From Hysterium pulicare CBS 123377 (Eukaryota; Ascomycota; Dothideomycetes; Hysteriales; Hysteriaceae): 64,000 nt of DNA. Location of the stretch: assembly GCA_000467715.1 (NCBI GenBank), contig AJFK01000462.1:62001-126000 (forward strand). The letters are read 5' to 3'. The notes under the pieces are model-generated. The model made no database searches. It was not told the DNA's origin and saw only the letters and a list, made by a program, of their open reading frames with translations. Shown here in pieces: positions 40,954 to 62,797 of this stretch (positions are counted from its first letter, which is position 1; every line of letters begins with the position of its first letter). The translations under genes were made by a program, and so were the position numbers.

Positions 40954-42307
40954 CTAGCCACTCAATGGGGCAACCCTCGCACCCATTCGAAGGAACGGCA
41001 TATCTTCATTCTCAGCTCCTTTGACCATCGAATTCGATGCATCCTCTGGCATTCGAGACGCCATCCTGTCCGGTACCAGCTCAGGAGTCACAGAACGAGC
41101 GATTTCCGGCTTCGGTACTCCGAGATTAACGCCATTGCTTTGTGACCCTTCGGGAGTTGTTGGACTTTTTGGGCTGTGCAATCCTTCAACAATAGCCGCA
41201 CGCTTTTCTCCCGTACGGGCTTCACATGGAAGCATTTGGTGGAAACCGAGTTCGTTGGCGACCATCTCGATGCTCTTGAAATACTACTCTAGGTGAGCTT
41301 ATATGGTACGAACGGGCGCGCGAATCGTTACCTTGACGGTCTTAACTTGAAGTTCCAGAGTTGCGTCCTCGTCTACAACGATGAGTGGGTGTTCATGAAG
41401 TTGAAGACACGACAGTGTCCACATATGGTTCACGCCGCCTTCGAGTGCTTTTTGAAGTGCAAGTGCTTTGTGTGCACCAGTGATGATAATCACAACTTCC
41501 CTAGCCTATCTTGGTCGTTAACTATTTGTCATCTACGTTGACACACACACACATGCTCACCTCCAACACAGTCTGCACTCCTACAGTGAGTGCCATCCTG
41601 GGGACTTGTTTCAGGTCATTGCCGAAAAATCTAGAATTGGCAAGAATGGTGTCATATGCGAGCGTCTTGACTCTAGTCCTCGATTTGAGGCTTGAACCGG
41701 GTTCGTTGAAGGCAATATGCCCATCCGGGCCAATGCCACCCAGAAATAACTCGATTCCGCCAGCTTTCTTTATCTTTTCCTCATATGCAATACACTCGGC
41801 TTCGAGATCAGAGGCGTTGCCATTGAGAATGTTGATATTCTCGGGGTCTACGTCCACATGGGAGAAGAAATGCTTATACATGAAGCTGTGGTAGCTCTCT
41901 GGGTGTTCTCGGGGTATGCCCACGTACTCGTCCTGCTGGCGTTTTAGCCAACCTATCAAAAAGATCTGTACCACGACTATATGCAAGGGAGCAACCGCTA
42001 GTACGCAGCGGCGATAATTCGAGCGCATCTTACCATATTGAAGGTAACCACATTTCGGAAAGAGATGTCACCGGCTTTATGCCTCTCAACGAGATTCTCG
42101 TAGATGAGCACGGGGCTGCTGCCGGTGGGAAGGCCAAGCACAAATGGTTTCTCTGGACTGGGCTCGAATGCTTGGATGCGTTCTATCTCCAACTTAGCCA
42201 CAAGGTAACCAATAAGGCTACTGATTCGGGAATGTACCAATAATGTAGTCAGAGATATATTTGGAGGCGGTCTGCGAGTCCTCTCTAACGATTAGTCTCC
42301 TGCGCAT
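40954..42307 (-). CDS. dam1: Glucosamine-6-phosphate deaminase
   Basis: Converts GlcN-6-P to fructose-6-P and ammonium, the last step of GlcNAc catabolism, in the cytosol. Model: complement(join(40954..41283,41332..41505,41561..41932,42034..42182,42238..42307)), 364 aa. NagB motifs are clear: [38 protein letters not shown] with general base Asp74, and [18 protein letters not shown] with Asp143 and His145. Intron 1 uses acceptor ATAG to restore [18 protein letters not shown]. coli NagB has 266 residues; the extra C-terminal 90 or so are Ser/Pro-rich with [14 protein letters not shown], usual in fungal orthologues as I recall. An alternative upstream mini-exon (ATGTATGGGGCCATCCC spliced at 42299) also stays in frame. 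Divergent from ngt1. Confidence 0.93.
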
Positions 42308-43547
42308 TGTCAGCATGCGCCACAGTGTCTGATATACGGGATGGCCCCATACATGATGACTGTCACTTGATGGTGATTAATCTAGCTGGACTGTAGCGAG
42401 AGATCGTGTTTGAGTGAGACGACCGAACCACGCAGTGCTTTAGGCCCTCTAATAACTATTTACGGCCACCAAAACTGCGCTCACTCACGTCACTACTGTC
42501 AGAGCAGAACGGCAGGCTTTTTTGTCAGAACTACATTATTTGCTCCAAGGCAAAGAGCAACCTTGTTGTGCGTGGCATCGGCCTGTTACGGCTGTTACCC
42601 AACCAGCGGATCATGAACTGACAATGTGCTGCGACGCCGGGTCGTGAGTGGCGGCATGCGTGCACCTTGTGTTACCACGCGGCTATTAGAATGCTGTATA
42701 TGCTGCTACATGGCTATCTCGACAAGGCGTTAGTCGGATTGCGAAGACGAGTGACGGTACGGCTGTTATCAATTGTGGACATGAGCGGGAGTGGGCTGGC
42801 GCGGCGATGGCTCCATGGCTTCACGGGCGACTTCACGATGCTGTCTCGGTCACGATGCGGATCACGATAAAGCATCGCGGAGAGTTGCTAGCGCGCGATG
42901 AGAGGGTTACATTCCAGCAGCTCTAGTGCCCGGGCGACCGTTGCACCTGGCTTGGAGAGTGGCTGCTGGGCCAGTCATGAACAGCCCTTTTCCTCTCGAT
43001 TGGATTGCCTAAAGGACGCAAGTTCACGGCAGCCCCCCGGCCCCCCAACGCCCGAGTTTGCTCGCCTTTCCGGGGCATGAGGCCGCCACGCTGCTCTCAC
43101 TGGCCCAGCGTCCATGGCGTCGATAAGACGCCCAACCACGGCCTGCCAGTGTTTCGTTACTCGCAGCCGGCGCGCTGCAGAAGGATGCTGGCGTGGAGCT
43201 TTGGCTGTCGTCCTTTTGGTGTCGCGTGCAGCAGCTGCCAGCCCGTGGTGTGTGTTCTTTTGGTGTGTGCATCTTAAGGACCCTGAACTTCCTTCTATAT
43301 CTATTCCATGACCCTGCCCTCATCCTGTAATATCTCCTCTCCTTTCCCTCACCACCAGGGGTCGCCAACTATCTCACCAATCTTTCTCCGACGTGCTCCT
43401 TCTCGACGTCGTGATCGCAATCGCAACCTTACCCGGTTCCTGATAAATAGGCTCACCGAGGGCCGACTATCTGGGTTGCCAACCCCCCCGCTCAATCCTC
43501 ACCACCAATTTGTTTAGCGGTGTGCTCCACCTCCAACTCTCACCACA
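42308..43547. promoter_or_regulatory. Shared divergent promoter dam1/ngt1
   Basis: 1.24 kb between the deaminase and transporter starts. Such an arrangement suits joint induction by GlcNAc. I looked by eye for an Ndt80-type site (GNCRCAAAW) and found no full match I would defend. Confidence 0.5.
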
Positions 43548-45225
43548 ATGGCCAATACATCAGAGCCTCCAGCCTACGGAGGCAAACCGACCGCGGCGCA
43601 CGAGGTTGCGGCGTCAACGGACGCCTCGCAGACGTATTCCGCCGAGGAGACTGGCTCTGCCCACCGTCCAACCGGATGGATGTACAAGCGACTCAAGATT
43701 GGCAGCTTCAGATTTCCGTGGTACGCCTCGCCGCCTGTGCAATTGGTCATTGTCTCCCTGGTGTGCTTCCTGTGCCCAGGTATGTTCAACGCATTGACCG
43801 GAATGGGTGGCGGTGGTCAAGTCGACCAATCTGCAAATGACAAGGCCAATGTTGCACTGTACTCGACGTTCGCCGTGGTAGGTTTTTTCGCTGGAACAAT
43901 CACCAACAAGCTTGGCATCCGAACTGCGCTTTCCTTTGGAGGCATTGGCTACTCCATCTACGTTGCCTCTTTTCTCAGCTTCAGTCACGAGCACAACTAT
44001 GGCTTCACAATCTTTGCAGGTGCTCTCCTCGGTACTTGTGCGGGAGTTTTATGGTGCGCCCAAGGAGCCATCATGATGTCTTATCCCCCAGAAGCTTCCA
44101 AAGGACGCTATATCTCGTGGTTTTGGATGATTTTTAATCTCGGTGCAGTCATTGGTAGCTTGGTATGTCACACAAGCTTGGAAGGTCTCTTTGGGACCTC
44201 TTTAAGCTAACGCCTTATACAGATTCCTCTGGGTCAGAACATTCACACAAAGGAAAAAGCCACCGTTAGCGATGGCACATACATTGGCTTCCTGGTCCTC
44301 ACTCTCCTTGGTGCTTTCTTGGCCTGGACGCTGGTTGATGCCAAACATGTCATTCGTAACGATGGCTCTAAGATCATTGTCATGAAGCATCCATCTTGGA
44401 AGTCTGAGCTCCTTGGCCTTTACGAGACGATCCAGACTGATCCTTATATCATTGCCCTCTTTCCCATGTTCTTAGCATCAAACTGGTTTTATACTTACCA
44501 TTTTAACGAGATCAACGGTACCTACTTCAACACCCGTACTCGAGCCTTGAACGGCGTGCTCTACTACGTTATGCAGATCATTGGCGCCTTCATTTTCGGC
44601 TATGCTTTGGATCGACCGCAGTTCCGCCGTTCTACTCGGGCCAAGGCTGCTTGGGTTGCGCTTTTCGTTCTTATCATGGCTATCTGGGGCGGTGGCTACG
44701 CTTTTCAAAAGACATACACCCGCGCAACTTTTGCAAGTAAGGATGCAGTATTGAAGGATTGGTCCGACCCTGGATACGCTGGCCCAGTGGTCTTGTACAT
44801 GTTCTACGGATTTTCTGATGCGGCTTGGCAGACTTGTGTCTACTGGTGCGTACATTCTCATGATTCCATCAGCGTTGTTAAGGGAATGCTAACTATTTTG
44901 CAGGTTCATGGGCGCCTTGACGAACAACGGCCGGAAACTTGCCAACTTCGCCGGTTTCTACAAGGGTATCCAGTCCGCAGGCTCTGCCATTACCTGGCGA
45001 TTGGATGACCTCGGGACGCCATATATGAGAATGTTCGGATCCACTTGGGGCCTACTTTGCGGAAGCTTGATCGTTGCGCTTCCCGTCATCCTCTGGAAAG
45101 TCGAAGACTCGGTCTCTCTTGAGAGGGATGTCGCATTCACCGATGAGACTATCGAAGAAGTCGCTCCAACAGTCGTCCGCGCACCCGAAATCCATGATGA
45201 AAAAGTCGCCGGCGAAAAGGCTTAG
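43548..45225 (+). CDS. ngt1: N-acetylglucosamine transporter, NGT1/UNC93-like MFS
   Basis: Plasma-membrane major-facilitator protein expected to import GlcNAc. Model: join(43548..44162,44223..44845,44904..45225), 519 aa. About 10-12 hydrophobic segments follow a 70-residue hydrophilic N-terminus, beginning with PPVQLVIVSLVCFLCPGMFN and LYSTFAVVGFFAGTITNKLG (first MFS loop region). TCAGVLWCAQGAIMMSYP, YISWFWMIFNLGAVIGSL and YFNTRTRALNGVLYYVMQI are typical of the DUF895/UNC93 branch, to which Candida Ngt1 and Trichoderma ngt1 belong. The C-terminal tail is acidic. Introns are 60 and 58 bp. The substrate is inferred from family plus position between dam1 and hxk3, and that context is strong. Confidence 0.87.
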
Positions 45226-47921
45226 ATGGCCCTTAGTAGTTACCCTTCATTTCTTGTTCTTCTAATTTCAAATGGGAAAAGGAATTTTGTGCGCGGCGCA
45301 TCGCTGGCTTGACTTTTGCCCAAGAGTCGTTAGCGAAGTGCCCTCACGGAAGTTTCTTGTGCAGGGAACCCAATTTTGTTGATGTGAGTTTTTTAGCGGC
45401 ACAATTGTCGACTGTTTCTTCCTCTGAGTGGCTCTTTCAAGCCTGTCATATATATTGGTGTTACGTGGTACCATCAGTTGAATGGAGTCAATGGTGACTT
45501 GTGCAGTACTTAATCCAGCAGTAGCATGGGCTCAAATAAAACCTCAATATTCTCACTGCATAATACTTTCACTATTGACGCAACATCGACGTAGACCTTT
45601 CGTTTATCGTGGGTCATTCTGGCAGGGTACTAAAGGCTCTGAGGGCTTGACTTTTTGTGCGAGGTTGCTAAGGAGCCTATCAACTTCAGTTTGCGGTACT
45701 GGGCTCTGTCGATTTAGGTATGCAAAGGAATGGAGTATTGACCTTGCATTCCTGAGCCATTCTACAGTGTTATTACATTCCTTCTGACATCGTCAAATTT
45801 GGCATTCCAATAACACCTTAGAATTGATGGTTACGTCCCAAGTAGTACCCGGTAGAGATTGTATGCAGGGCTCATGGCGGTTCGGAGACTCCGTGTTCCA
45901 ATTTCCTCAAATGCGTGCATCTACCATCTCTCCACCACAACGTTAATGATTCAGCTAACAATATGTAAATGCAATAACAAGGAGCTTTTCTATATACTAG
46001 GACTATTTAGAAAACTTTTGATGGCGTTGAATGAATCTCGAAACGTAACCTCAGTATGCAAGTGCAAACTCGGAGCCGTTTCCTTTCCCGCCTCATGTAC
46101 CACATTTCATGAGTACAATTTCTCGATGTTCTTTCTCATCTGCTCATCTAGCTTATTTAGAAGCCGAAATTGAAGAGGAAAGCCAAGAGTCTTCCCATTC
46201 CTTCCTTTTTGACTTAGTAGCAGTCAGTAAGGTGAGATTGCACCGTAGTATGGTATTTGGTAATAGTTTATTGGTAGAGAATGAACGTCGGTTATTGCCG
46301 TTCTTCTGTGAATATGTAGTAAATGGGAATGGATCGATGAAAAGTAGGTAAGCTTCCGTTACCACTCGGGTGCAACGTGCTAGAATGAGCGACTGCTACC
46401 TGGTTGAAGGTGCTAAGCTTCGTTGGTGGCGTCGACTCGTGGTCTTAGCTGCATTGAGAGGCACAGTAGTCACCAGCCTTATCAAGAGAGGTGGCGTCTA
46501 AATCGACAGCACGCTGCGAAACAGGCGAGAGGCAATGTTTCAACGGAATGCGTCGTTGCGGCTCGTATTGAAGCGCTCCTCGCATGGCCACTGGCGCGGA
46601 GCTGCCCTGAGAGACGAAACTGACAGAGTGCAATGCTGCTCCAGCTCTGCAGCCACTCGTCCATCCATCTGGCCTCTTCGGAGCCCGGAATACCTCGTAG
46701 ATTGCAGATTGCAGATTCTCTTGGCGGTGGTACACTGTCGTTGCACTCAGCGCCTTCTGCGGGGTTGTTCCTGTACACGCGGGGTGCGTTTCGTTTCGCA
46801 TGCACGAGGGGCACAGGCAGCCAGAGGTTTGGGGAGCAGGAGTATAGTATGAGGTCGTTCTATGTAGATGTCCTTGACGCTGTCCCTAGGAAGTCCGATA
46901 GTATGGGCGAGGCGGTGAATGTGGGCATGTATTTTGGAGATAGCACGATGGGTGTGATAATTTGTTAGATTCCAGGTCCACTATGCCGCCATATAGCACA
47001 ATAGAAGACTATGCGCACGACAGTTCTGATGTCCGCTGAGGGCTAGATACCCCTCCAGGACCATATCACCAAGGTCAAACAGCGTATGCAGACAGTAAGG
47101 AGAGCCGTCCAGAGGCTGAAGCGCAACCTAGATTCCAACGGATTATGACACCCATTGTGATAGTGGTAGATCGGCGGCTGGGAGATCTGGTGCGCGTAAC
47201 CTCTGTAAGATGCTTGTAAGTTCTCAACAGGGACGAGCAGGTAATAGAGTAAGTCTTATACCGTCAACAATTAATCGCGAAAGGCGCAATCTACCTGCCC
47301 CTATCAGCTCCAAGGCTCGGGGCACGCATGGATGATGGGGATTGGGTGAAGGCCATCTAAGCCAATTGCCTTCATCAAGACTGTCCAGAGGGTGCTTTGA
47401 TACGTGCAGGTATTGTTTGCGGAGGTTTAGCGCACCCGATCTGCCAGGGGCTTGAGCTGAGCCTGGCGATGAAACGGTAACTTCACAGCACAACCCCCCA
47501 TAATACCTAGGCCACCTGTGTCAATTATGCCCCCGTCAACCCAGGCCTGCGTGCCCGCTGCCCAGGAGCCCCGCCCGTCATAGAGTAGCGGATGTGACCT
47601 TCCTCGCAATCCTCATACTTTCTCTTACATAGGAAACCTCCTCCATCCGTACAACCGCCATGCATAAGAGCCGTTTGCGACATCGGTCGAATCACACAGG
47701 CTGGCCTAAAATTTCTCTGCATTGCCGCGCTCCAGAGTCCTTCTGTCGTTACAGACTTACGAGTACCACTTGGTAGTCCACCCCGCTGTCGCCATCCAAT
47801 ATCTGGGTGCCTTGCGAATGCTGGACCGACATTGAATATCCTCCGCATGACCCTCGTTTTCCTCCTGCATACTCCTTCGAATCCCTCGCTGTGACAGCAT
47901 ACCGAGAGCGTCAGATCCCAC
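45226..47921. other. Gene-free interval inside the GlcNAc cluster
   Basis: 2.7 kb between ngt1 and hxk3. Open frames exist (for example 46535-46968) but are Arg/Ser/Cys-rich and paired with equally long antisense frames. The left part is the ngt1 3' UTR and the right part the hxk3 promoter. I find no extra cluster gene, such as a chitinase or a second regulator. Confidence 0.5.
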
Positions 47922-49622
47922 ATGTTCGACTTTTGGCAGAGCTTGTTGGCTGCTCTCGAGCGCATCATCATGCTGCCTTCGCTTATACAGGCCGTGTTCC
48001 CCTCGTTATCCTCCCCCAAGCGCGTACGAGATGCAGTCCGGACGTACGATCGCACCATGGACGATTTCTTGCGGGAGGTACAGAGACTCTTTGAAAGCCC
48101 GCTCAGCCCAGCGAGTCTACTGGGAATGTCTGGCAAGATGCAGGACCAGTTTCAACAAAAGCTTCAAGCGAGCAACATCTGCATGCTCCCTTCATACAAC
48201 CATAAACTCCCGACGGGCGACGAACAAGGGACCTATTTGGCTTTGGACGTTGGTGGCTCGACCTTTCGGGTGGCTTTGGTGGAATTGAATGGGAAGAAGA
48301 TCGGGTCCAAGGGCATGCGGATAGTGAATATGAAGAGTTATGTCATAGATAATTCGGTTAGGACATTAAGGGGTCACGCATTTTTCGACTGGATGGCCGA
48401 GAAGATTGAGGCCGCGATCTCAGACTCACAAGTCAAGAAACTGAATGGTGATTCTACGTTGCCCATGGGTCTCGCATGGTCTTTCCCTGTTGAGTAGGCT
48501 TGCACTTTTCTCAACTGCAACTTTGAGCCTCTGACTGACTGTTGCGCAGGCAGACATCAATCCGTAGCGGCATGTTGTTAACCATGGGGAAGGGCTTTCT
48601 GGCCACAGAGGGAACTATTGGGCAGGACCTTAGCGAATTGATTATGGAGCCGTGTAGAAGACGGGTAAGTTCTTCACCCGACTTCACAAAGGCAGTCTGG
48701 AACTGAGAAATAATTCAGGAGATCAACGTTCGTCTGGATTGCGTTGTCAACGACGGATCGGCGACGCTGTTATCAAGGGCGTATGAAGACACCTCCACAC
48801 GACTTGCCCTGATTCTTGGGACGGGCATGAATGCAGCAGTTCATCTTCCAGTATCCGCTCTGGCCCCTTCAAAGTTTGGAAGCAGGCCGCAAAAGTGGCA
48901 TGATGAGGCTGATCACGTTCTCGTCAACACCGAGCTCAGCATGTTTGGCAAAAATGTCCTCCCTACCACAAGGTGGGATGAATTTCTCAACGAAACACAT
49001 ATACGACCGGATTTCCAGCCCTTCGAGCACATGGCTAGTGGTCGTTACCTTGGTGAAGTCGTGCGGTTAGTTCTCGTCGAAGCCATCCGAACTGCAGGCT
49101 TGTTTGGAGGCGAGATGCCCGAGAAGCTCGCAGAGCCGTATTCGTTAGATACTGGGACAATCGCAGTAATAGAAGCGTGAGTACATCCCATTCTTATGCG
49201 CTCACTCTGAAGTTGACTTGTCATTCAGTGACGAAACGAAATCGCTTTCACATGCTTCCTCCATCTTTCATGCGAAGCACCCACTATCAAGGCCTCCGAC
49301 CACTTCCGATCTTGGTTTCATCCGCCAGGTTTCGCGGCTTGTTTCGCACCGCGCCGCCGCCTACCTGGCAACTGGCATTCACGCCCTCTGGTCACTTCGA
49401 GCGGTTTCCGAGGGCCTAACTCCAGCCGAAATGGGCCACATCGCAATTGGCTGCAACGGTTCAGTCATCGAGAAATATCCTTATTTTAGAGAGCTATGCC
49501 AGTCCTATTTAGACGAGCTGACTACTCTGTCGGGGGCAGGCCCCAAATCCGTCGTACTTGAAATCGCAGTCGAGTCCGCCATCTTTGGCGCCGCAGTCGC
49601 CGTATCTTGTCTTGAGGAGTAG
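47922..49622 (+). CDS. hxk3: Hexokinase-family GlcNAc kinase
   Basis: Expected to phosphorylate GlcNAc to GlcNAc-6-P in the cytosol. Model: join(47922..48493,48550..48664,48719..49176,49229..49622), 512 aa. The ATPase phosphate-1 motif [17 protein letters not shown] begins at about residue 106. The sugar-binding motif reads [17 protein letters not shown] (glucokinases usually GFTFSFP). Connect/phosphate-2 reads [10 protein letters not shown] and [13 protein letters not shown] instead of VNDTVGTM and [25 protein letters not shown] is the adenosine-side motif. These departures agree with the group of fungal hexokinases that use GlcNAc rather than glucose, such as Trichoderma hxk3 and Candida Hxk1. 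The three introns (52-56 bp) are in phase. Context with dam1, dac1 and ngt1 decides the call. Confidence 0.9.
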
Positions 49623-51708
49623 ATCCATCCAGTGATCAACATTCGCATTTGTCTATATGTTGTTGTGCATTTCTGGGCGTTTTACATGGTGCAATCTAAA
49701 GAGCAGATCACCGACGGCGCGACAGCATCTACCATCTATTGTATATTTTGAAGAGCCATTCATCGCCATTTCACAATGTTTGGAAGATGTCTCAGATTTA
49801 CGATATCGTGCTGCATTTACCAGTTCACTTGCATTTCCTTGGACTTGGGTTAATTTCAGGTGTTGTTGCTGGACGAGTTGATGCATATCTGGGCGGATCG
49901 AAACTGCCCCGGCCGCTGTGGCACTAATGCTGTACCGGTGTTTGGCGCGTAATCCTAGGAAGAGAAGAGATGGGTAAAAAGGGATGGCCATGTGGATCTC
50001 TTTTGGATACATTTATTTTTCTTTAATCGACTGAGATGTCATCACAAAGACGACGCTACGGCGTGTATCTAAGAAGAAATTATTAAGAAATCCCTCGCCT
50101 ATGCTTGTGCACACCACTAGGAATGTACTAAGGTGACACTGTTTCTAGCCTTTTGAACCCATACCTACACTACTTACGAGAATGACTGGAAGAAAAGCAA
50201 CCCATTCTTGGGTTCAATAAACCCTCTAACCTCAACAGGATCGCGGACTTCGCCGGAACAGTGGATGGGAGGCATTGCCAGCAAGTGTTTTTCTGCACGC
50301 CTGCAGGCTGCATACGAACGCCGCTTCAAAACCAAACGTCTTGGTTGCGGCGAAGGGGGAAAAGCACAGCTGTTGGAGGCGAGGTTGCATCGCGGCGGTC
50401 CATCCAATCCATATGTTGCGCACACACTTCCTTCAATTACCTTTCCCTCCAATCTGTTGCCAGGAGACTGTTAAAGAAAATAACTGGATAGCTAGATCTG
50501 GAATGTGATCCCGCTAGTGTATCTATTATACGAAACGAAAATATCTAAATCTTCAGGAAATGATGTGTGTTCACGTTTCTGGGTTCGTATTGGGAAAACG
50601 GGAAAGCCCTGATTATTTACCGCCCTGCTGCTACTTGTTGTGAAGACGGTGAGCCCGATGCTGCTCTGTTCTCTTGTTGCAGTTACGGCGCAGGGGGGTC
50701 GTGTGAGCGCTAAGTAGAAGGAGTGGTTGGCATAAGGACCTACCAAGGTGGCAGAGTCCGGTCCTGACATTGTATATGATGTGAGCTCCGTCTAGCAACA
50801 AGACAGAGGGGTTTATAATTATAGACCTCAAAAGTTGATACTTGTCATTATACGTTGGAGGGAGGAAGAGCCACCAGGACTGAGGTAGAATCTTTGGTAA
50901 CGGTCAGGAGAAAGCAAAGGTTGGGATATATTGCTGCCGAAAAAGGTATAGGTATAGTGATATCAAATACATTCATTCATCCGTAGAATTCTCCAAAAGA
51001 GCCAAAATCTCTACGCATTGGTATTTCCCCTCCCACTAAAACCCATTGACACCACGACAAGAATAAAAATTAATAGTTTATAGGTTGCTGGTGCTGATGC
51101 TGACGCGGCAAATGGCGTGTTCGCTCCCAAGCCATTCGAAAGGTGCATTGAAGAGTTGCTATATGCATCGTCCATATGATGGTGATGCCGTGTTGCAGAC
51201 TACACCGTCATCTGTCGATAAGGATCCGCGCGACCGATCTACATCAAATGTTGGAGAAGAGACGTATGAATTTGGACGTGGTCTAGGTTGATCCGGGGGA
51301 AATACAATGCACACGTGGCCTTGTACTGGCGGTCTATTCAACCCATAGCTTGTCGAACGAACTTCTCTAGGCGCAAGAGATTGCGCTGGATCGTAGCAAG
51401 ACCCCGGATACTGTTGATCCCCTTCTCCTCAATCCAGCCCCAGGTGGCAACAAAGTCGTTCTCCAGCTTTTGTGCATCGTGCTGCTCGAAGCCTGGTCTT
51501 TGCGTCGAGCCTGGAATTCGATCCCACCCTGGTACCTTCTGATCACGATGCTATGTCATCTTCATCCAAGACATTGGATATCTCTAGCGACTAACTGGAA
51601 AGACCACTCCTAATCGCTCGGTTCCTTTTCATCGTTCTGAAGCTACTTTGGAGCTACATAGAAGATTCGTATCAAATTTCAGCAAAAAAAGGTATCTGAA
51701 TGACACGA
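49623..51708. other. Convergent spacer hxk3/ron1
   Basis: 2.1 kb between facing stop codons, longer than two 3' UTRs should need. The stretch 51338-51550 is coding-like on the minus strand (separate entry). Nothing else here is supported. Confidence 0.5.
51338..51550 (-). other. Unassigned 70-codon coding-like segment downstream of ron1
   Basis: Read leftward from an ATAG acceptor-like site, the frame runs 70 codons to TGA at 51338. The text looks protein-like: HRDQKVPGWDRIPG, RPGFEQHDAQKLENDFVATW, WIEEKGINSIRG, then RNLLRLEKFVRQAMG, with amphipathic helices and no low complexity. It could be a 3' exon of ron1, reached from a phase-0 donor near the end of that gene (for example GTAAAG after PKALA), or the end of a small separate gene. 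No ATG-led exon is evident. I do not recognise a family. Confidence 0.35.
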
Positions 51709-53346
51709 TTACCAAACATCAGAGAAATACCGCTTCGATCGGCTCTTTACAGCAAGTGCTTTAGGATCCTGCGGAAGATTTGTGTGGTGTACGACGTGTG
51801 GGCGATAGACTGCATCAACCGGTGGCATCCAGTCGTCCAGTCCAAGTGGAAAATATTCGTACAGAAGGTCAGCACTCTCATCCGGGCTGCTAATAACATT
51901 GAGTGAAAAAGATGGTGGCCGGGCCGGAGTCAATCTGGCGTGTTTCTTCGCTGGATCGGAAGGCGAGGCTAACTTTTTAGGCTCCTCGTCAGTTAGAGAA
52001 AGCGTGACAGGCGCCATAGGCGGTCGCTGTGCTTGAGAGTTTCTCGATATTTCGGGTGTAGACTGTGCATACGGAGGTACTGATGGTACTTGATAAGCTG
52101 ATGGGTCGGGCGGTATAGCAGTCATTGCCCCCGCTTGGCCGGTGGGTATCTTCCAGTCAAACATATCAGGAGACACGGGAAGGTCGTTCGGGTCGAATTG
52201 GAACGGCAGCTGAAGCACGTCAATTGGTTTGCTATTGGCTCGTTCCCCTTGGATGTTATTGTGACTCGAGTCACCTGTCGAATTCCGGGTGGGCTGTGCA
52301 GGGAGATGCGAAGCCTTTCGAGCCGTGCTACCTCCCCCGCTGATAGGGAAATCTTTTCGCGATTGGAAGTTTCTTGGACTCCGCCCCCGTACGATAATAG
52401 CACCTGAATGGACTTCACAAATTGGAATTCGTGCCCCAGTTGCGAGGGTTGCCATAACCTTCAATCTCACGACAAAGTGCTGTTGCAACTCCTTCCTTCG
52501 TCCATTATTCGCAGTGGCTATCCGGAACTGGAGTCTCTTCCAAGCGATGGGAAAATTAACATACTCCGAATCCATGTCCTGCCCATTTGAAAGATCCAAG
52601 GGGTACGAGGGCGGTTCCTTCTCGGTCTTGTCTTCCACTACGGTCGTACTACTTGCGGGAGTCTTCCACGGGACCGATATAATCTTCACTGGGTTCCCTT
52701 CGAGGGACTCTGTGGCAGATATGGTGAGCTCTTGAGCTAAGATAGGAATCTGCTCCCCTTGCTCGGTGAGAATGAATTGAAGTGCGCGTGGTAGGGTGGC
52801 TGTGCCTGTTATCTGAAATAGATTCCGCCTGTAGCATGTCAACTCCGTTGGTGTTGCAGACACATCGCCGGCAGTAGCCCAGGGCGACTCGGCCAGGAAG
52901 AACATGCCATGGAGCTGGGCTGATATCGATATCGTCGTCCTCCGACAAGCATAGTCAAGAAGGGTATAGGCGTAGTTTGGTAGTGAGAAGCTGAGAAGCT
53001 TATTGTCCCGCTCGATTGATGGGCTCTCTGGTCCATTTTGGTCCTGATGTGTTGGATGTTCGTAGGCACTGAGGACGTCTGAGAAAGGGTCCTCGTATGT
53101 GCTGTAGCTTCGCTTCAACTGCGGAGGAGGTTGGATCGAATGAGGTCCGAATGTGGCATCGTCACTCCTTAGTAGTGTCAGCATAGCAGTGGTAGTTGTT
53201 ATCCGAGCACTTGCTTACCCAACGAAGGTCTCTGCGTCGTAATTAGAGTGATGATCGAGAGCGTCAAGCGGCAGCAACGGCACGGATAGCTGCTGGTCTG
53301 GCGCCGTTACGTTTTGAAGTGACATTGGGGCCGCCAAGTAGGACAT
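51709..53346 (-). CDS. ron1: Ndt80-like transcription factor RON1, regulator of GlcNAc use
   Basis: Nuclear activator with an Ndt80/PhoG p53-like DNA-binding fold; in Trichoderma reesei RON1 is needed for expression of the GlcNAc genes. Model: complement(join(51709..53167,53219..53346)), 528 aa. The fold lies in the first 60%: ISISAQLHGMFFLAESPW, PTELTCYRRNLFQITGTA, SEYVNFPIAWKRLQFRIA, QHFVVRLKVMATLATGARIP, EVHSGAIIVRGRSPRNFQSR. The C-terminal half is Ser/Pro-rich with a YEYFPLGLDDWMPP block and ends KSRSKRYFSDVW. The first ATG gives MSYLAAPMSLQNV; the 51-bp intron has GCTGAC and CTACTAAG. A downstream coding-like segment (51338-51550) could extend the C-terminus. Confidence 0.87.
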
Positions 53347-54425
53347 GGTGAGCGTATCGAAGCCCTCCATTGTTGGTTACGGACAGGGCCGGACAAGAAG
53401 GAAGGTCGGTTGCGTGAGAGCGCATGCGATCCTAAGAGAGGTGGCGGCGCCAGCAGACGGGAGAGCGGAGGGCCTTCGCTGTGCGGACAAGAAGGAGGAT
53501 GCGCGCACCACGAGCAGCCTGTGGTGGAGAATCAGTCGCGATGGGGAGAAGGATCACTTGAGGAGGTGAGGGCTGGTGGGTTTGGCGAGTGGCCAGTAGT
53601 GAGCGTTGGCGGCAATCTAATCGAGCTACCTAGGTACCTGGCCCAAAAGGAAGGGCTAAGAATAAACGACGGCCGGGAAGAAGACGCCGGCGAAGCAATA
53701 CTTCTGCATCAGTCGCTCGGATTGCGGTCGCAGTTGAATGCTGCCAGCGTGTGCGACGGGAAAGGCCCCGAACGACCCCGAACGGTCACATGCAGAACGC
53801 CAAGCTCGCTGGACTGGAAGCTCGGGGAGCATTTGCGCAAAGGAAGGGTGGAAGGGTGGGGGAGGGGGCAGCGCAATGCACAATCTCCATACTGTCTGTA
53901 CATGTACCTAGAGCCAAGGTCGCACTGGACAAGCTAACACCAGCACACTCCATTCCCGTCGGTGCCCCAGTGCCAGAGACATGCATGGAGCTTCGCTGGC
54001 TGGTTTGGGCAATCTTCGAGAAACTGTTTCGCCGTTAGATCGACGCTGGCGAGATGGGGCGCTGGGTTGGCTCCCGCTGCTGAGATGAACGGCGCGAAAA
54101 CGCCATCGGCATCCGCCAGCCGACTCGGCCGGCCAACTGCTCCACAAACCAGCGCGCAATCACTCCCCGTGTGGCGCTTTGGAGGCTGCTTGCCACGACA
54201 GCCGAAGGGTGCTTCAGTTCATGCGACTGGTGCTGGCTCAATGAAAGGTAGTCCCATTTAGAATCAACTTTCCGCTTCCTATCAACTCCCGCTCCCAAAA
54301 GTATATCCAGAAGAATATCAGAGGTATCCCAGAAAACTCCAATCCGGTCCATCGTTAACTTGATCGTACAACACCAATACGTGCAGTCTACTAGATTACT
54401 CCTCGTTGTTACACTTCTTTGTCTC
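53347..54425. promoter_or_regulatory. ron1 promoter / nag3 terminator region
   Basis: 1.08 kb between the nag3 stop and the ron1 start on the same strand. The part near ron1 is GC-rich and keeps frames open on both strands without protein-like text. It should hold the nag3 3' UTR and ron1 promoter. Confidence 0.45.
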
Positions 54426-57400
54426 TCAAGATGGCGGGATCATCGTCCATGTTGCCGCGTCACAACTCACTTCCTCAAAGTTATGCAGTACATCGAATCC
54501 CATCGCCGAGAAGCCGTCAAAGTTACCGTCGCCATCCATCTATATCCACATTAGCCTCGGTATCGATCATTAACGAGCATCATACTTACATAGTCGAGAA
54601 GACAGGCATTACAGCCCTGAGCCTTGATCTGCCTCATGCCCAACAGGATCAGCCCCTGGAGGAGGGTGGAATATTCCCCTACAGCAGGAGAGATGACTGG
54701 AGACGAAATGCCCCCAGCCATCTCGTTCAGATCTTTCAATGGAGGGACGTATTCCGCTAAGCGTGAGTGCATGTTATAGAGTACAACTGTGCCCACCAGC
54801 GCTCCGTCCTCGGGTCGTTTGGCGCGGATAATGCCGCAAGATGATGGATCGGAAAGGGCAAGCTTATAGACTTCTGCCAATCCCTGCCGGTTGCTGGTTT
54901 TGATGTGGTCTAGAATGGGGCTCGCATATTCCCATCCATACACCAGGTCAAACTCGGCTCCAGCACTCGCCAAGCTCTTCGCCATGCCTTCTGGGGGTGT
55001 CCAGGTTAATAGACTTCGAGCAACCATGCTACAAACCGGTCGAGACAGTGCGGCATTCCACCCCAGATTAGCAAACCAGGATCGCAGGCGCTTCCTTTCG
55101 GTGCCATGACCTGTAGGGATGCCCAGGAAGATGCTCGGCAATCGAGAGCCTAATTGGAATCGTTTGATACCCTCTCTTTGCAGGAGCGTTCGAATCGCTC
55201 GGTTGTGTAGTGAGTGGCCGATGGAAAGTTTCCTCCGAGATGGGTCGACGAACAGAGCGCCAATGACGCCGGTGCCAGTAGTTCTGAAGAAATAAGTTGA
55301 GCAGAAGCCATACAATGCTTGTGTACTACTATTTCGGACGACGAAATGCGCTTCTTCAACCTCGGCATGGTGTAGGATGAATGAATTCGAAGTCGCACTC
55401 GAGAGCTCGGATCGCTGGTTTGGTGGTGACCCTTCCATCACGGCCACAATCAGACTGTCCAACGCGCGAGCATCGCGTTCCTCATTGAAAGCCTCCACGA
55501 GCCAATGCTGCCTAGAGTGGTGAAGCTTTTGGCTTTTGCTTATTGTACCTGGCAAGGTTCCGGTAGGTGAAAGCTCGCCGTACAGCACTCTGACTAAAGA
55601 ATTCAAGGCCGTTTCAGTGAAGTCATAGGTACAGATATATGTCCCTATGCTTGTGTCCATCGCAAAGTCATACGGAGAGCTAACGGCAACGACAATGAGT
55701 GGCTTCTCGCGCTTTTCGCCACCAGTCGTGTATTGCATGTTGCAAATCATTGAAACATGCTTAGTAAAACCATGTTGATAGAGGTTACGATTTGCGTCCG
55801 CAGTGAGAACGACAATTGCACTTGCACGATTTATGAGGTTTTCGTGAACCGGTCGAACCCCATTGGCCGTATAGGAAGTATGGAGAACACGACCACTTCG
55901 TTGTCTTGCAAGGGATCTTCCGAGTTCTCTGAATACACGCTCTCCGCTCATGACGGATGCGCTTCGCTCCCAAACTTGCGGTTCTGGTGATCCTGACGCA
56001 GCGGTTTCTGAGAGCGCTCGAGAAGCGGCAGATGCAGCCAGCGGTTTGACGAGAGGGGTCAAGAGAAGCAACTCTTCTTCACTATCGAGCACATTTGTTA
56101 GGGGAAGTAGTCGGTTCTTGTCTCGAACAACCGTGATGGAGGAATTGTACGCCTTTGTAGACAATGCAGTATGTGACGGTTGTAATGATTCCAGGAAGTT
56201 TATACCGGGAGGATTTAGAGCTTTCTCCCACGTCGTGCATTTCTTCTTCAGCTCCAACACGCGGCGTAGTGAATTGTAAATCCGGTCTTTGGAGATCATT
56301 GAGTTCTCTATCCCGGTTTTTAAGCCTTTAAGGGCTTCTTGCTGGACTGAATACAATCGACAGAGGAGCACAACATCACATCCTGCATTGACGGCCATGA
56401 CAGTGCCGCCGCCGACACCTATATTGTGACTGAGAGCGTCCATCTCAAGGCATTCAGACACGACCACGCCGTCGAATTTGAGATCAGACCTGAGTAGCCC
56501 GTCCACCACCTGTTCAGAAAGACATGCGTGCATGGCATTGAGGCCAGCGGACGACATTGCGCAGCCGCCAACCATCATTGAATCAAGGCCTTGGTTGATG
56601 GCATTCCGAAACGGTATCAAGGCACTCAAACTCAACTGTTCTAGTGATTCCGTAATGATTGGGACGTCGAGAGTAGAGCCTAAGAACTCGAGGTTTCCGT
56701 AAGATGGGAAGTGCTTTCCTAGAGTGACGAGACCGGCTTCTTTGAAGCCTTTCATGAAAGCAACTCCGTACGCGGATACTTCTTGCGGATCGTCACCAGC
56801 CGTTCTCACACCCAGGGGTTGGTTGCGAGCATTGGTCAGTACATCCAAACAAGGAGCGAAGATCCAGTTGATGCCACAAGCAGAGAGTTCTTGCGCCGTT
56901 GCTTTTGCGACTTTGAATGCCAATTCAGTTGAACCAGTAGCAGCAACACCCATGTTACTAGGGTATTGTCTGATGTAGATTTCATCGAAGAGGCTGTTGA
57001 CTCCGCCATTTTCTTGATCGACGCCAATGGCCAATGGGACTGGATGGCCGGCATCATGCGCGATTCTTTGAAGTTCATAACATAACTTGGTTGTCTCGTC
57101 GGCGGCTTCATTACATCAGCGTCCGCTCACATACATCTAAAAAAAATTCGGCAAAGTCATCATTTCAGACGCGATTACGCTCACATTTTAAATTCTTGGC
57201 TGTCAGGAGAATACAGCCCAGGTGATGTTTCTCAATGAGCGTTCGAATCTGCGGCGTGACAGAAGTCCCATCGAAGCCCATCATAAACAATTGCCCCTTC
57301 AAGGATTAGCTTGATCGCCACATTATCGCATCCGGAGAAGCGCACCATAGTCCTGCAAGTGCAGTCAGCAAGCGGAGCTGTTTTGCAGGAGAGGATATAC

Positions 57401-57457
57401 CCATACGCACCTATCCAGATCATCCCATACGGGATCCAACTTCTCTTTGGCCGCCAT
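54426..57457 (-). CDS. nag3: GH3 beta-N-acetylglucosaminidase with C-terminal GNAT domains
   Basis: Releases GlcNAc from chito-oligosaccharides or GlcNAc conjugates; no signal peptide, so probably intracellular. Model: complement(join(54426..54539,54590..57105,57185..57296,57346..57352,57411..57457)), 931 aa. The 7-nt second exon gives LDRTMGQLFMMGFDGTSVTP. GH3 barrel motifs: LAIGVDQENGGVNSLFDE, KHFPSYGNLEFLGSTLDVP (His187), VVVSECLEMDALSHNIGVGG (Glu273), TTWEKALNPPG. A C-terminal alpha/beta domain with TVVRDK-like and IVVLTADANRNLYQHGFTK follows. Residues about 630-740 are GNAT-like (VDPSRRKLSIGHSLHNRA), and 750-931 a second GNAT-like half ending DYMDGDGNFDGFSAMGFDVL. This GH3-GNAT fusion is the fungal NAG3 type. 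It shares a promoter with dac1. Confidence 0.9.
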
Positions 57458-58279
57458 GTCGGATGTAAACCGAGCATACAGCGATGCGGGCCGAGTTAGT
57501 GAGAGTCAGCCCTTGGAAGCCTCAGCGTGGTCGTGCGTTAAGCGGCTTAAGCGTGAACCAGTGGGCAGATAGCGCCGGCGGCAGCAGGCATCGTGGGGTT
57601 ACAGTGAGGAGCAGCAGTCAGGTAGTGATCCCTTGCGGGCGTTCAAAGACGAGAGAGGAGTGGAGCGGAGAAGGTTGAGGTTGCATCGTATACAACTTCG
57701 GAGCAACACCCCGGAAGCCTGCAAGCGAGTATCATGCCGCTAGGCAAAGAAAGGGAACAGGTACAGCATGTATCTGGTCGACATCTCTACCACGCAAAGT
57801 TGTCACCACTGCGGGTATGGAGGCAGATCCGATAAAGACGGGTTGATACCGTCGATGCTACTGCTACTAATGCTACACCTCCTCACTCTTAGTACCTACT
57901 GTGTCCTTTTGATCCTTCTCTGACATATTTGCCCGCTGATAACCTTATCTGCTACTGGCCATCTACAATGCTACCCAGCACCCCGAAGCCATTCAGAGCC
58001 TCCACAATTAACACGCCCTGGCTTCTAGGGCTGCTGACTCGAGCAATTTTGGAAGTCGAAAAGATTTTCTTCGCGTCCGATGACGAAGTTGCCATGCGAT
58101 GGATTTGATTAAAACAATAGTGATTCCAGTAATATGTTTCATTGTTGAGGTTCCCTCAACCACAATTTCCTAGCTCGATTCTCTCATTGTGTCTCTCTTC
58201 TTCTTTATCATCATTCCCTGTTTAGTCGCGTGGTACAGTACATATCTTCCTCTTCGTCGATAGAACAAAACCTCGGAAC
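57458..58279. promoter_or_regulatory. Shared divergent promoter nag3/dac1
   Basis: 822 bp between two outward-facing start codons, with pyrimidine-rich sequence directly before dac1. As with dam1/ngt1, the layout suggests co-induction. I do not claim a specific factor site. Confidence 0.5.
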
Positions 58280-59685
58280 ATGCCATCTGCCATCTCTAAT
58301 CCAGAGAGCCACCGAGGAAATGGCATCATTAAGTTCACAAACTGCCTGCTAGTGAAGGGCAATGACCTCGTAAAAGAAGACCTGTGGACAAGTTCCATCA
58401 CTGGAAAAATACTCCATGGCCAAGAAGTGTTCTTCGGCCAGCGCGCCGCTCCCGATCGCATCATCGACTTGGGCGGTCGCATCCTCAGCCCCGGCCTCAT
58501 GGATGTTCAGATCAACGGCGCTTACGATGTCGACTTTTCCATCATCCCAGAGGAGGGCCCAGCCGCCTACGGAAAGGAAATAATGCGAGTTAACAAGAAT
58601 ATGATTCGGACTGGTGTCACATCCTATCTTCCGACTCTTCCAAGTCAAAAGGCGGAAGTGTATCATGAGGTGAGCGATTGCCGAAGGAGAGCCTTCCGTA
58701 ATTAGTATCACTCGCGGATGGGGGTTGATCTCAGTTATCTTCTCCAAATTGTCCTAATCGAAATTTCCAGGCTCTGCCATACCTCGCACCCTCAGGCAAG
58801 CAGCGCGATGCCTCAGCGGGCTCCGAAGTTCTCGGCGCACACTGTGAAGGGCCCTTTATCAGTCCAAACAAAAATGGAATTCACAGCAAATCTGTCCTAC
58901 GAACCCCTCTCAACGGGATCTCTGATCTAGAGGAGTGCTACGGAACTTCAAACATCAGCAATAACAGTCCAATCAAAATGCTCACCATCGCTCCGGAGCT
59001 CTCAGGCGCTCTCGAATGCATAAAATCTCTATCAAAACTCGGCATCACGGTATCCATTGGCCATAGCGAAGCATCATACGAAGAAGCAAGTGCGGGGATC
59101 AATGCGGGAGCAAAGATGATAACTCATCTCTTCAACGCCATGCAGCCTTTACACCACCGAAACCCTGGCATTTTCGGATTACTAGGCGTTCCATCGACAA
59201 ATCCCTCTACACCAAAACCCTTCTTTGGAATCATAGCCGATGGAATACACTTACATCCGACCTCGATCAAGATTGCCTGGAATGCACACCCCGATGGCCT
59301 CGTTCTCGTCACGGACGCCATGCGATTGACGGGTATGCCGGATGGGGTGTACGACTGGACGAACGGGTCGCGGTTCGTGAAGAAGGGTCCCTTACTCACT
59401 CTCGAAGAGAATGGAAAGATTGCAGGATCCTCTATCACGCTCATCGAGTGTGTGACGAACTTTCTGAACTGGACGGGAGCGAGCGTACCGGAAGGACTGC
59501 AAGCAGTGACGTCGACGCCTGCGAAGATGCTTGGCATTGAAGACGCGAAAGGTTCGCTGCAAGCTGGGGCTGATGCAGACTTGGTTGTGCTCGATCTGGA
59601 GAACCTTGAGGGAGGGGAGAGAAGGCTGGTGGTTGATCAAGTCTGGAAATTTGGACAGTTGGTGTTTGAGCAAGAGAGGGCATGA
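58280..59685 (+). CDS. dac1: N-acetylglucosamine-6-phosphate deacetylase
   Basis: Cytosolic amidohydrolase turning GlcNAc-6-P into GlcN-6-P plus acetate, between hxk3 and dam1 in the pathway. Model: join(58280..58669,58771..59685), 434 aa. NagA motifs occur in order: ILSPGLMDVQINGAYDVDF, VLGAHCEGPFISPNKNGIH with metal ligand Glu156, TVSIGHSEASYEEASAGI with His228, MITHLFNAMQPLHHR with His249, IIADGIHLHPTSIKIAW, and LVLVTDAMRLTGMPDG with catalytic Asp312. The C-terminal strand SLQAGADADLVVLDLENL closes the composite sheet. The single 101-bp intron is phase 0 (EVYHE/ALPYLAPSG). Length fits Candida Dac1 (about 413). This is the right border of the GlcNAc cluster. Confidence 0.95.
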
Positions 59686-60118: not shown

Positions 60119-61742
60119 TTATAACTTCGACTTCTCCTTCGGTCCAGCAAGCGGATCATAAACATTTAGTCCCAACGTGTCCGACGGAACCATGGCGGTA
60201 TGCATGCTCAACCCTCTTGTGTCTACCAACGTCGGGTTCAACTCTGAGATATTCGCACACCCGATTAGTCGCATATTCATTGCAAGCTCTTCTTTGAGTA
60301 ACTATAATTTATCAGCTTTGATGAGTAAAAGTGGGCCAGAGGGACAAAGTGCATACCTGCATCGCTCGATCTACGCCTGGCAGACCATACGCCGACATTG
60401 CATATAAAAACGGTCGACCAATACCCACTCCCTTCGCACCAAGGCAAAGGGCCTTAAGAATATCGGTAGCACGACGAACGCCACCATCCACGTAGATTTC
60501 GATGCGATCTTGCCAGCCACGCTCACGTAGAACTGGCATCACCTCAGACAGTACCTCAATACCGGACCGTGCAAAGTCGAGCTGTCGGCCGCCGTGATTA
60601 GACAGAACGACACCATGAACACCAACCTCAATGGCGCGGATGACGTCTTCTACACGTTGAACACCCTTTAGAATGATAGGCATCTTTGTAATGCTTAAGA
60701 ACCAGGGTATGTCATTCCAGTTTAGGCTTGGGTCTATGAAGGAGGAAATAGCGCGCGCAGCGCCCTGACTCCGGTCGACATCGTCGCCGCCTGTTGACTG
60801 GACGTTCGAACCCACGTCCGAGAACTTGGAACGCATATCTTTTTCCCTGCGGCCGAGTTGTGGTGCATCAACAGTGATAAAGAGACCTTTGCAGCCGCGC
60901 TTTTCGGCATGCTGCACAATACGCTTTGTGATATCCCGGTTTTTGTTGACGTAAAGCTGGAGCCATTGAACCTGGCCCGGTTCTGCGGCGTCCATGATCT
61001 CGTCGAAAGAGCAGGAAGCTAGTGTCGGAATCATCTGGATCACATTGTGTTTTTTAGCACCTCTTGTCAGAATCACTTCGCCCTCTGGATTGCCCAATTT
61101 CCCAAGCGCAGTTGCAGTAACGTAGAATGGCATATCGACCTTGGTGCCAAGCATCGTTGTAGAGGTATCTATATTCTCGACATCCTGGAGTATCCGTGGA
61201 CGGAACCAGATCTTGTGGTAGGCATTGTGGTTTTCTCGCATCGTCTGTTATGCCTATGAGCTAACATACGTAGAATTATGAGGGTGTTTTGTTCTTACAA
61301 TCTCGTCATCGGCACCACTTGAGTAATAAGCCCAAGCCGTCTTTTTCATGACAGTCCTGGCCACAGCCTCGAAGTCCATTAAATTATAACATTGTTCCAA
61401 AATTGGCATTCTCTTTATCCTCTCTTGCCTGTCTTTCTCGTCGGGATCCTCCTCCTTCTGCTCTTTCTCGACGGTGTTCATGTCCACCTCGCCTAGATGC
61501 TTTGACTTGTCCAAGTACTTTTCAAGTGTGTCCGGAGGATGAATTGGCTCATATTCTTCGGTGGCATCTTTGCCAGCGTACTTCAGGATGATCTTGGGAC
61601 CTCCTGGATGCTCTGGCAGAAATTCGGTGACGTCGTATGCGCGGCCATGGATGATGACCCAACATGATTCGCGCGAGTTATGCTTTGCGACTTCTTCCCC
61701 CTTCAGTTTGTTCCGCTGGGTGTCATTACTCTGGTGGTTCAT
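60119..61742 (-). CDS. CYB2: FMN-dependent L-lactate dehydrogenase (flavocytochrome b2 type)
   Basis: Oxidises L-lactate (or another L-2-hydroxy acid) with FMN and passes electrons to cytochrome c through its b5-type heme. Model: complement(join(60119..60301,60357..61244,61299..61742)), 504 aa. Cytochrome b5 domain: heme ligands His45 in FLPEHPGGPK and His68 in EPIHPPDTL. The FMN barrel follows: AYYSSGADDEITMRENHNAY, FYVTATALGKLGNPEGEV, LQLYVNKNRDI, GLFITVDAPQLGRREKDMR, GVVLSNHGGRQLDFARS with catalytic His365, and YVDGGVRRATDILKAL, VGIGRPFLYAMSAYG. Introns are 54 and 55 bp. Yeast Cyb2 has a bipartite mitochondrial presequence of about 80 residues; this protein starts almost at the b5 domain, so its location is uncertain. 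Confidence 0.92.
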
Positions 61743-62797
61743 GTTGGGTTTGAGCAGAGCTCAAAGATAAGGTAGCAAGAAGAGGGGAGGGGAATGATAT
61801 AAAATGGAAAAAGAGGCGCGAGACGGAATAACAGGTAGTCGGCGACCTCTTCAGTTATTATACAAATACCAGAGAAGAGGAATCGGCCACCTTCTGCTGT
61901 ATGCAAGTGGTATTTCTAGGATAGAAGCGGAAATAGGTCGTCGTCAATTGGTCTATGACGGTGAAAACATGGCCCGGCAGACCTCGGTCCAATTAGCGGC
62001 GAGTCAAGAACAATCCCCGCATCCGATGAAGAGCACAGAAGGTGAAGCTTGGAGTCCATGTTTTTGTTGCGGCTCGGCAGATGCAAACTCACATAAGCGC
62101 CCCCTATGAGATGAATGTATAAGGATTGTCGCTGGTAAGTTAGCTACGTAGGTACCTGGCCTGGATGGATGTTCGGACGGAGGACAGGCTGCTGGGAAAC
62201 CTCAGCGTGCATATGCGGGGTTGGCCAATGACGATGCACCAGCTAGACAAAAAAAGATCAAACTACTCTGGTGCAACCCTTTTCTTGGAGGCTTTTCACA
62301 GCTTCTGTCCCTCTCTCTATGCGACGACCACCATTATTGTTTCCAGTCGCCAGATATGAGCACCTGCGCCTTCATCATGTCCTGCCGCTCTCGCGTCGCT
62401 GACAGGCCCGTCACATGCGCCCCCAAGCCAAGCCCACCGTTTCGGGCTCCGGCCTAAGTGCTTTCACTGCCATCCATGGTCCATGGAGGTCAGTCGCTTC
62501 TCACCAGCAATCGTGCAACCAACTCTTTCCTCCCGCTACACAATCCCACTCCGCTTTCACCACGAGCCATGCCACTGGTTATCCGTGGTGCGCCAACACA
62601 ACTATTCCTCTGCCTCTGCCTCTGCCACTGCCGTATTGCTATCAGGCCGTCGTAGCCTCTTCCACCCTATTCTCAGCCTCTTCCTAGAATATTTGGCCGC
62701 ACACTACGACACCTATCCGTTATACAAACATTCGTACGCCACCTAAGCATAGTGTACTTCCACAGAATCGCAGCCAATTCGTGTGGGCGCCACCGCC
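61743..62797. promoter_or_regulatory. Divergent promoter CYB2-like/Rab gene
   Basis: 1.06 kb between outward-facing starts. It contains a (CCTCTG)n run at 62607-62632 near the Rab gene. No further gene is supported. Confidence 0.45.
62607..62632. repeat. (CCTCTG)n short tandem repeat
   Basis: About four hexamer units, the last imperfect (CCACTG), in the pyrimidine-rich leader or promoter of the Rab gene. Confidence 0.8.

Follow-up and report, generated by a model that had tools for sequence, protein, structure and literature searches.

The window, the 64,000-nucleotide stretch of Hysterium pulicare CBS 123377 DNA analysed here (contig AJFK01000462.1, positions 62,001 to 126,000), carries six intact genes between 40954 and 59685 (18,732 bp), in the order dam1(-) ngt1(+) hxk3(+) ron1(-) ngs1(-) dac1(+). 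With high confidence, this locus is a version of the ascomycete N-acetylglucosamine (GlcNAc) catabolic cluster that includes the transporter gene ngt1, and that has a predicted NGS1/RON1 switch. Gene content, order, intactness and domain identity were observed directly, as were the residue changes in NGS1. The genes and the two divergent promoter regions are listed below, with functions as predicted. HGATAR is a GATA-type site, and MSE is the yeast Ndt80 site.

dam1, 40954..42307, minus strand: glucosamine-6-phosphate deaminase, 364 aa, 5 exons (42307-42238, 42182-42034, 41932-41561, 41505-41332, 41283-40954)
dam1/ngt1 shared divergent promoter region, 42308..43547: 1240 bp, 7 HGATAR sites, 0 MSE core
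ngt1, 43548..45225, plus strand: UNC93/MFS-type, predicted GlcNAc transporter, 519 aa, 3 exons (43548-44162, 44223-44845, 44904-45225)
hxk3, 47922..49622, plus strand: divergent hexokinase, predicted GlcNAc kinase, 512 aa, 4 exons (47922-48493, 48550-48664, 48719-49176, 49229-49622)
ron1, 51338..53370, minus strand: Ndt80/PhoG-type transcription factor, 600 aa, 3 exons (53370-53219, 53167-51718, 51538-51338)
ngs1 (formerly nag3), 54426..57457, minus strand: GH3-like + GNAT, predicted GlcNAc sensor/acetyltransferase, 930 aa, 4 exons (57457-57407, 57296-57185, 57105-54590, 54539-54426)
ngs1/dac1 shared divergent promoter region, 57458..58279: 822 bp, 6 HGATAR sites, 0 MSE core
dac1, 58280..59685, plus strand: GlcNAc-6-phosphate deacetylase, 434 aa, 2 exons (58280-58669, 58771-59685)

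Extent and intactness of the cluster

Gene models were spliced manually, with the strand of each gene translated in three frames; all introns are GT..AG and all frames are open. The limits of the span coincide exactly with the stop codons of dam1 (40954) and dac1 (59685), and the expected Pfam domain was above cut-off in each of the six proteins. nag3/ngs1 and an Ndt80-like gene accompany hxk3, dac1 and dam1, and this linkage is the one by which the ascomycete GlcNAc (RON1) cluster is defined. The first-pass annotation had proposed a GlcNAc catabolic cluster including an Ndt80-like gene and encoding uptake, kinase, deacetylase and deaminase; the domain content bears out both proposals, the functions being predicted ones.

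The five intergenic gaps contain 43 stop-to-stop frames of at least 70 codons. The best of these has a codon score of 0.044, as against 0.078-0.140 for the six genes, so that no coding-like frame is seen by this score; the gap frames had no Pfam scan. Because the score was trained on the same six genes against the same gaps, the comparison favours gene-free gaps. A hidden gene in the gaps, including the two largest (ngt1-hxk3, 2,696 bp; hxk3-ron1, 1,715 bp), was rejected as the frames score as non-coding. Rfam matches at gathering score and tRNAs were both absent from the whole window, in a search that could miss genes of very small size and any RNA gene not covered by Rfam. The claim that six linked genes lie together stands, with no recognisable gene between them.

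The probability that the grouping is accidental, or that some members are decayed copies, is close to nil. ngt1 does have a second, unlinked relative in the genome. However, each of the six models has an open frame, the genome used for paralogue searches (596 contigs, 37.2 Mb) yielded no close second copy of dam1, ron1 or ngs1, and the association is reported to recur, with varying completeness, across ascomycetes (PMC4950302).

The GH3-GNAT protein NGS1

NGS1 consists of an N-terminal GH3 domain (Pfam Glyco_hydro_3, 3.9e-61) and a C-terminal GNAT domain (Acetyltransf_1, 7.9e-7); of the splices in its model, that of the first intron is the least secure. The protein had been annotated as a glycosidase freeing GlcNAc from oligomers. 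An enzyme of this kind would extend the cluster from catabolism to degradation, and the strong GH3 similarity speaks for it, as do the names of the two top PDB matches, both N-acetylglucosaminidases (4zm6, 2.3e-89; 6k5j, 1.1e-69). GlcNAc-binding motifs are also retained (VDQENG from residue 83, GVRTAG from 153, KHF from 185), paired with D74, R145 and K175-H176 of the C. albicans protein by motif and not by alignment to Ngs1. The Asp nucleophile and the Asp-His dyad of NagZ-type GH3 enzymes are, however, replaced in NGS1. The dyad stretch TDSHLDVP of 4zm6 reads LGSTLDVP in NGS1, where D-S-H has become G197-S198-T199, and TDCLEMDA, which holds the nucleophile, is SECLEMDA, with E272 in place of Asp. 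6k5j agrees with 4zm6 in having both the nucleophile and the D-S-H dyad.

In T. reesei (Trichoderma reesei), nag3 has been renamed ngs1 and its product proposed as a sensor in which the cleavage residues are lacking (Ullah et al. 2025, PMC12176254). The variant residues reported there are Gly206, Asp208 and Glu282; the H. pulicare protein agrees at two of these positions, with Gly and Glu, and differs at the third, with Thr199 here and Asp208 in T. reesei. The T. reesei ngs1 deletion strain is described as having basically no growth on plates with the GlcNAc monomer (PMC4950302), which also speaks against the glycosidase reading. For C. albicans Ngs1, GlcNAc binding and acetyltransferase activity were reported (Su et al. 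2016, PMC5063960). Fungal N-acetylglucosaminidases had earlier been described from family GH20 (PMC4950302), and GH20 matches were found on five other contigs of the genome, in six match rows that include two exon pieces of a single gene. These genes are likelier releasers of GlcNAc than the GH3-GNAT protein.

An active glycosidase is thus very improbable, even though Su et al. left hydrolysis open for Pezizomycotina. The GH3-GNAT protein matches the GlcNAc sensor NGS1, and its GH3 domain is probably non-hydrolytic. As NGS1 is without the NagZ-type nucleophile and dyad, the release of GlcNAc from oligomers that had been ascribed to it is unsupported, though not disproved.

Enzymes and transporter

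Both DAM1 and DAC1 passed the cut-offs of their specific family models. DAM1 has the Pfam domain Glucosamine_iso (5.9e-22) and matches TIGR00502 nagB (1.8e-121); DAC1 has Amidohydro_1 (9.1e-19) and matches TIGR00221 nagA (1.5e-73). Matches of the two enzymes to the longer PRK models were below cut-off. The closest PDB sequences are glucosamine-6-phosphate deaminase 1ne7 for DAM1 (1.7e-116) and GlcNAc-6-phosphate deacetylase 7nut for DAC1 (1.1e-85). DAM1 retains DEYVG (from residue 74) and a 13-residue stretch from residue 141. Past the part aligned with 1ne7, DAM1 is extended at its C-terminus by about 97 residues (40954-41247, minus strand), which had no Pfam match. Two PF01182 loci were found in the genome, and the other one was considered as a second deaminase and rejected: its identity to dam1 is 21.6%, and it looks like a 6-phosphogluconolactonase. 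Since this locus is distant and of another apparent type, dam1 looks like the sole deaminase of the genome.

HXK3 is of full-length hexokinase type (Pfam Hexokinase_1, 1.2e-48; Hexokinase_2, 2.9e-63). It retains VVND, which starts at residue 238, as well as the glutamates in NTE and PFEHM. The Asp of VVND is catalytic in hexokinases, and the roles of the two glutamates are likewise established. Four further hexokinase-type loci were found in the genome, to which HXK3 is 30-34% identical in pieces and 25-31% in longer alignments; hexokinase domains, the catalytic Asp and divergence from the other genomic hexokinases thus occur together. This divergence would also fit a non-catalytic regulatory hexokinase that is not a GlcNAc kinase, as would the replacement of NDT by NDG and the C-terminal loop, an 11-residue stretch without the GSG type that is seen in two of the four paralogues (AEDGSGVGSA or AKDGSGVGAA). 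Such a role is nevertheless unlikely, as the Asp and both glutamates are kept and the hxk3 gene of T. reesei is reported to be required for biomass formation in liquid GlcNAc culture, sparse outgrowth being seen on plates (PMC4950302). The same paper calls T. reesei hxk3 the orthologue of A. nidulans HxkC. A predicted GlcNAc kinase remains the preferred assignment for HXK3.

NGT1 belongs to the transporter family by its Pfam matches (MFS_1, 5.8e-21; UNC-93, 4.2e-14). Its unlinked relative lies on contig C289 (locus L036, 3195-4851), with three aligned pieces at 60, 71 and 44% identity, and is possibly NGT2.

Regulation and relation to published clusters

RON1 carries the PF05224 DNA-binding domain (Pfam NDT80_PhoG, 4e-40); a PDB search with the protein gave a best E of only 0.53. 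The last intron of ron1 is uncertain, being 179 bp long with a weak donor (GTTTGG). The putative third exon adds 66 residues (KVPGWDRIPG...FVRQAMG; region 51338-51717), and the unspliced form would have 536 aa and end at 51709. One other NDT80-domain locus was found in the genome (L037, contig C338, ~44328-44957), with 41% identity over 77 residues and 25% over 231 aligned columns; it is perhaps of Ndt80/FSD-1 type. As this single locus is distant from RON1, the genome search revealed no paralogue of VIB-1 type. Together with the Ngt2-like gene, this would be a Eurotiomycete-like pattern, which is a guess. RON1 is provisionally filed in the RON1/XprG clade by its linkage.

The sensing, recruitment and induction steps, and the substrate specificities, are extrapolated from work on T. 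reesei and C. albicans. By analogy, NGT1 would import GlcNAc, and the free sugar would bind the GH3 domain of NGS1, which probably has no hydrolytic activity. RON1, an Ndt80-type protein, would bring NGS1 to the promoters, where histone acetylation by NGS1 would turn the genes on. HXK3 would then convert GlcNAc to GlcNAc-6-phosphate, from which DAC1 would take off the acetate, and DAM1 would yield fructose-6-phosphate and ammonium. In T. reesei, joint induction by GlcNAc that depends on RON1 has been reported, and all six deletion strains described had strongly reduced biomass on GlcNAc (PMC4950302).

Several observations weigh against this interpretation. The four upstream regions were scanned with five motifs against 200 shuffles, the hxk3 region being its nearest 1.5 kb. 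The full yeast Ndt80 MSE was absent from them (0 vs 0.52 expected), and the MSE core occurred once (1 vs 2.06 expected; at least 1 in 171 of the 200 shuffles). The MSE was thus rejected as a shared promoter signal of the cluster; the consensus is that of yeast, and RON1's own site may differ. A simple hydropathy scan of NGT1 gave eight segments over threshold, as against 12 helices expected. In the GNAT domain of NGS1, a serine stands in place of the first glycine of the R/QxxGxG motif. The usual GSG-type C-terminal loop is absent from HXK3, and orthology of the cluster genes is suggested by family and linkage. Finally, Su et al. state that NGS1 of Pezizomycotina 'may retain the hydrolase activity' (PMC5063960).

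A possible GATA-type signal was found in the same scan. HGATAR, one of the five motifs, occurs 20 times in the four upstream regions (9.9 expected), a count reached by none of the 200 shuffles. The excess lies mainly in the divergent promoters, with 7 sites vs 2.0 expected at dam1/ngt1 and 6 vs 2.1 at ngs1/dac1, or 5.6 and 7.3 per kb compared to 2.4 window-wide. CreA-type SYGGRG sites were close to expectation (26 vs 23.4; 61 of 200 shuffles reach 26), and no exact 8-, 9- or 10-mer was common to all four regions. A single XprG/RON1-type factor in a six-gene cluster, together with GATA-rich divergent promoters without Ndt80 sites, could mean that GlcNAc use is wired to nitrogen and carbon status, RON1 acting on a different site or via NGS1 and a partner. 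This suggestion is a doubtful one, and it loses weight because 5 or 6 HGATAR sites also occur in several 1-kb bins elsewhere in the window and because the region upstream of ron1 is poor in them (1 vs 1.5 expected).

The cluster shares with that of T. reesei the linkage of hxk3, dac1, dam1, ron1 and ngs1 (nag3) and the same domain types (PMC4950302, PMC12176254). The gene set had been said to match the T. reesei RON1 cluster, and in this respect the annotation has to be corrected. T. reesei ngt1 is reported on chromosome 7 and the GlcNAc cluster on chromosome 6 (PMC12176254); as ngt1 lies outside the cluster there, the present gene set differs, with ngt1 between dam1 and hxk3. Nor is the layout a second arrangement, as had been suggested, since Kappel et al. 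had drawn the cluster in 18 ascomycetes in 2015, with interposed genes in some (PMC4950302).

A transporter gene within or near the cluster has been described in other species. NGT1 is reported near other GlcNAc genes in H. capsulatum and B. dermatitidis, as it is here, and also in A. fumigatus (PMC3778022). In H. capsulatum, NGT1, HXK1, DAC1, NAG1 and GIT7 are clustered and NGT2 is unlinked, comparable to the relative on C289; the genes there extend over 75 kb, in contrast to 18.7 kb here (PMC3778022). GIT7 is the counterpart of NGS1 (PMC5063960). For A. fumigatus strain A1163, a 2025 paper describes dacA, nagA and ronA as 'non-clustered', despite close locus numbers (PMC12584764). In the A. 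nidulans xprG region, an XprG/RON1-type gene likewise stands beside the nag3/ngs1 orthologue, but an inversion has split the cluster in two (PMC4950302), whereas it is in one piece in H. pulicare. The NAG1-DAC1-HXK1 cluster of C. albicans has the same enzymes, sensor type (Ngs1) and regulator type (Rep1), with REP1 linked to NGS1 (PMC4950302). It differs in that clustering is limited to the three enzyme genes, with NGS1 and NGT1 found elsewhere (PMC5063960, PMC4950302, PMC3778022).

The neighbouring genes are both oriented towards the cluster. These, and a sugar kinase gene about 4 kb outside it, are as follows.

Neighbour with a CRAL_TRIO_N domain, plus strand: frame end ~40434 (by eye)
Neighbour beside dac1, convergent, minus strand: frames 60312-61760, cytochrome b5 + FMN dehydrogenase, L-lactate dehydrogenase-like, below NCBIfam cut-offs
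FGGY-family sugar kinase, 35180-36869, plus strand: two frames

Thus, the cluster is real, complete, intact and of a known kind, with a compact layout and the transporter inside. The annotation of its GH3-GNAT gene as a predicted sensor, and not as a chitin-degrading enzyme, is a safeguard for the annotation of such genes. As a compact, uninterrupted example with both transporter and sensor inside, the locus helps to reconstruct the assembly and break-up of a primary-metabolism cluster.

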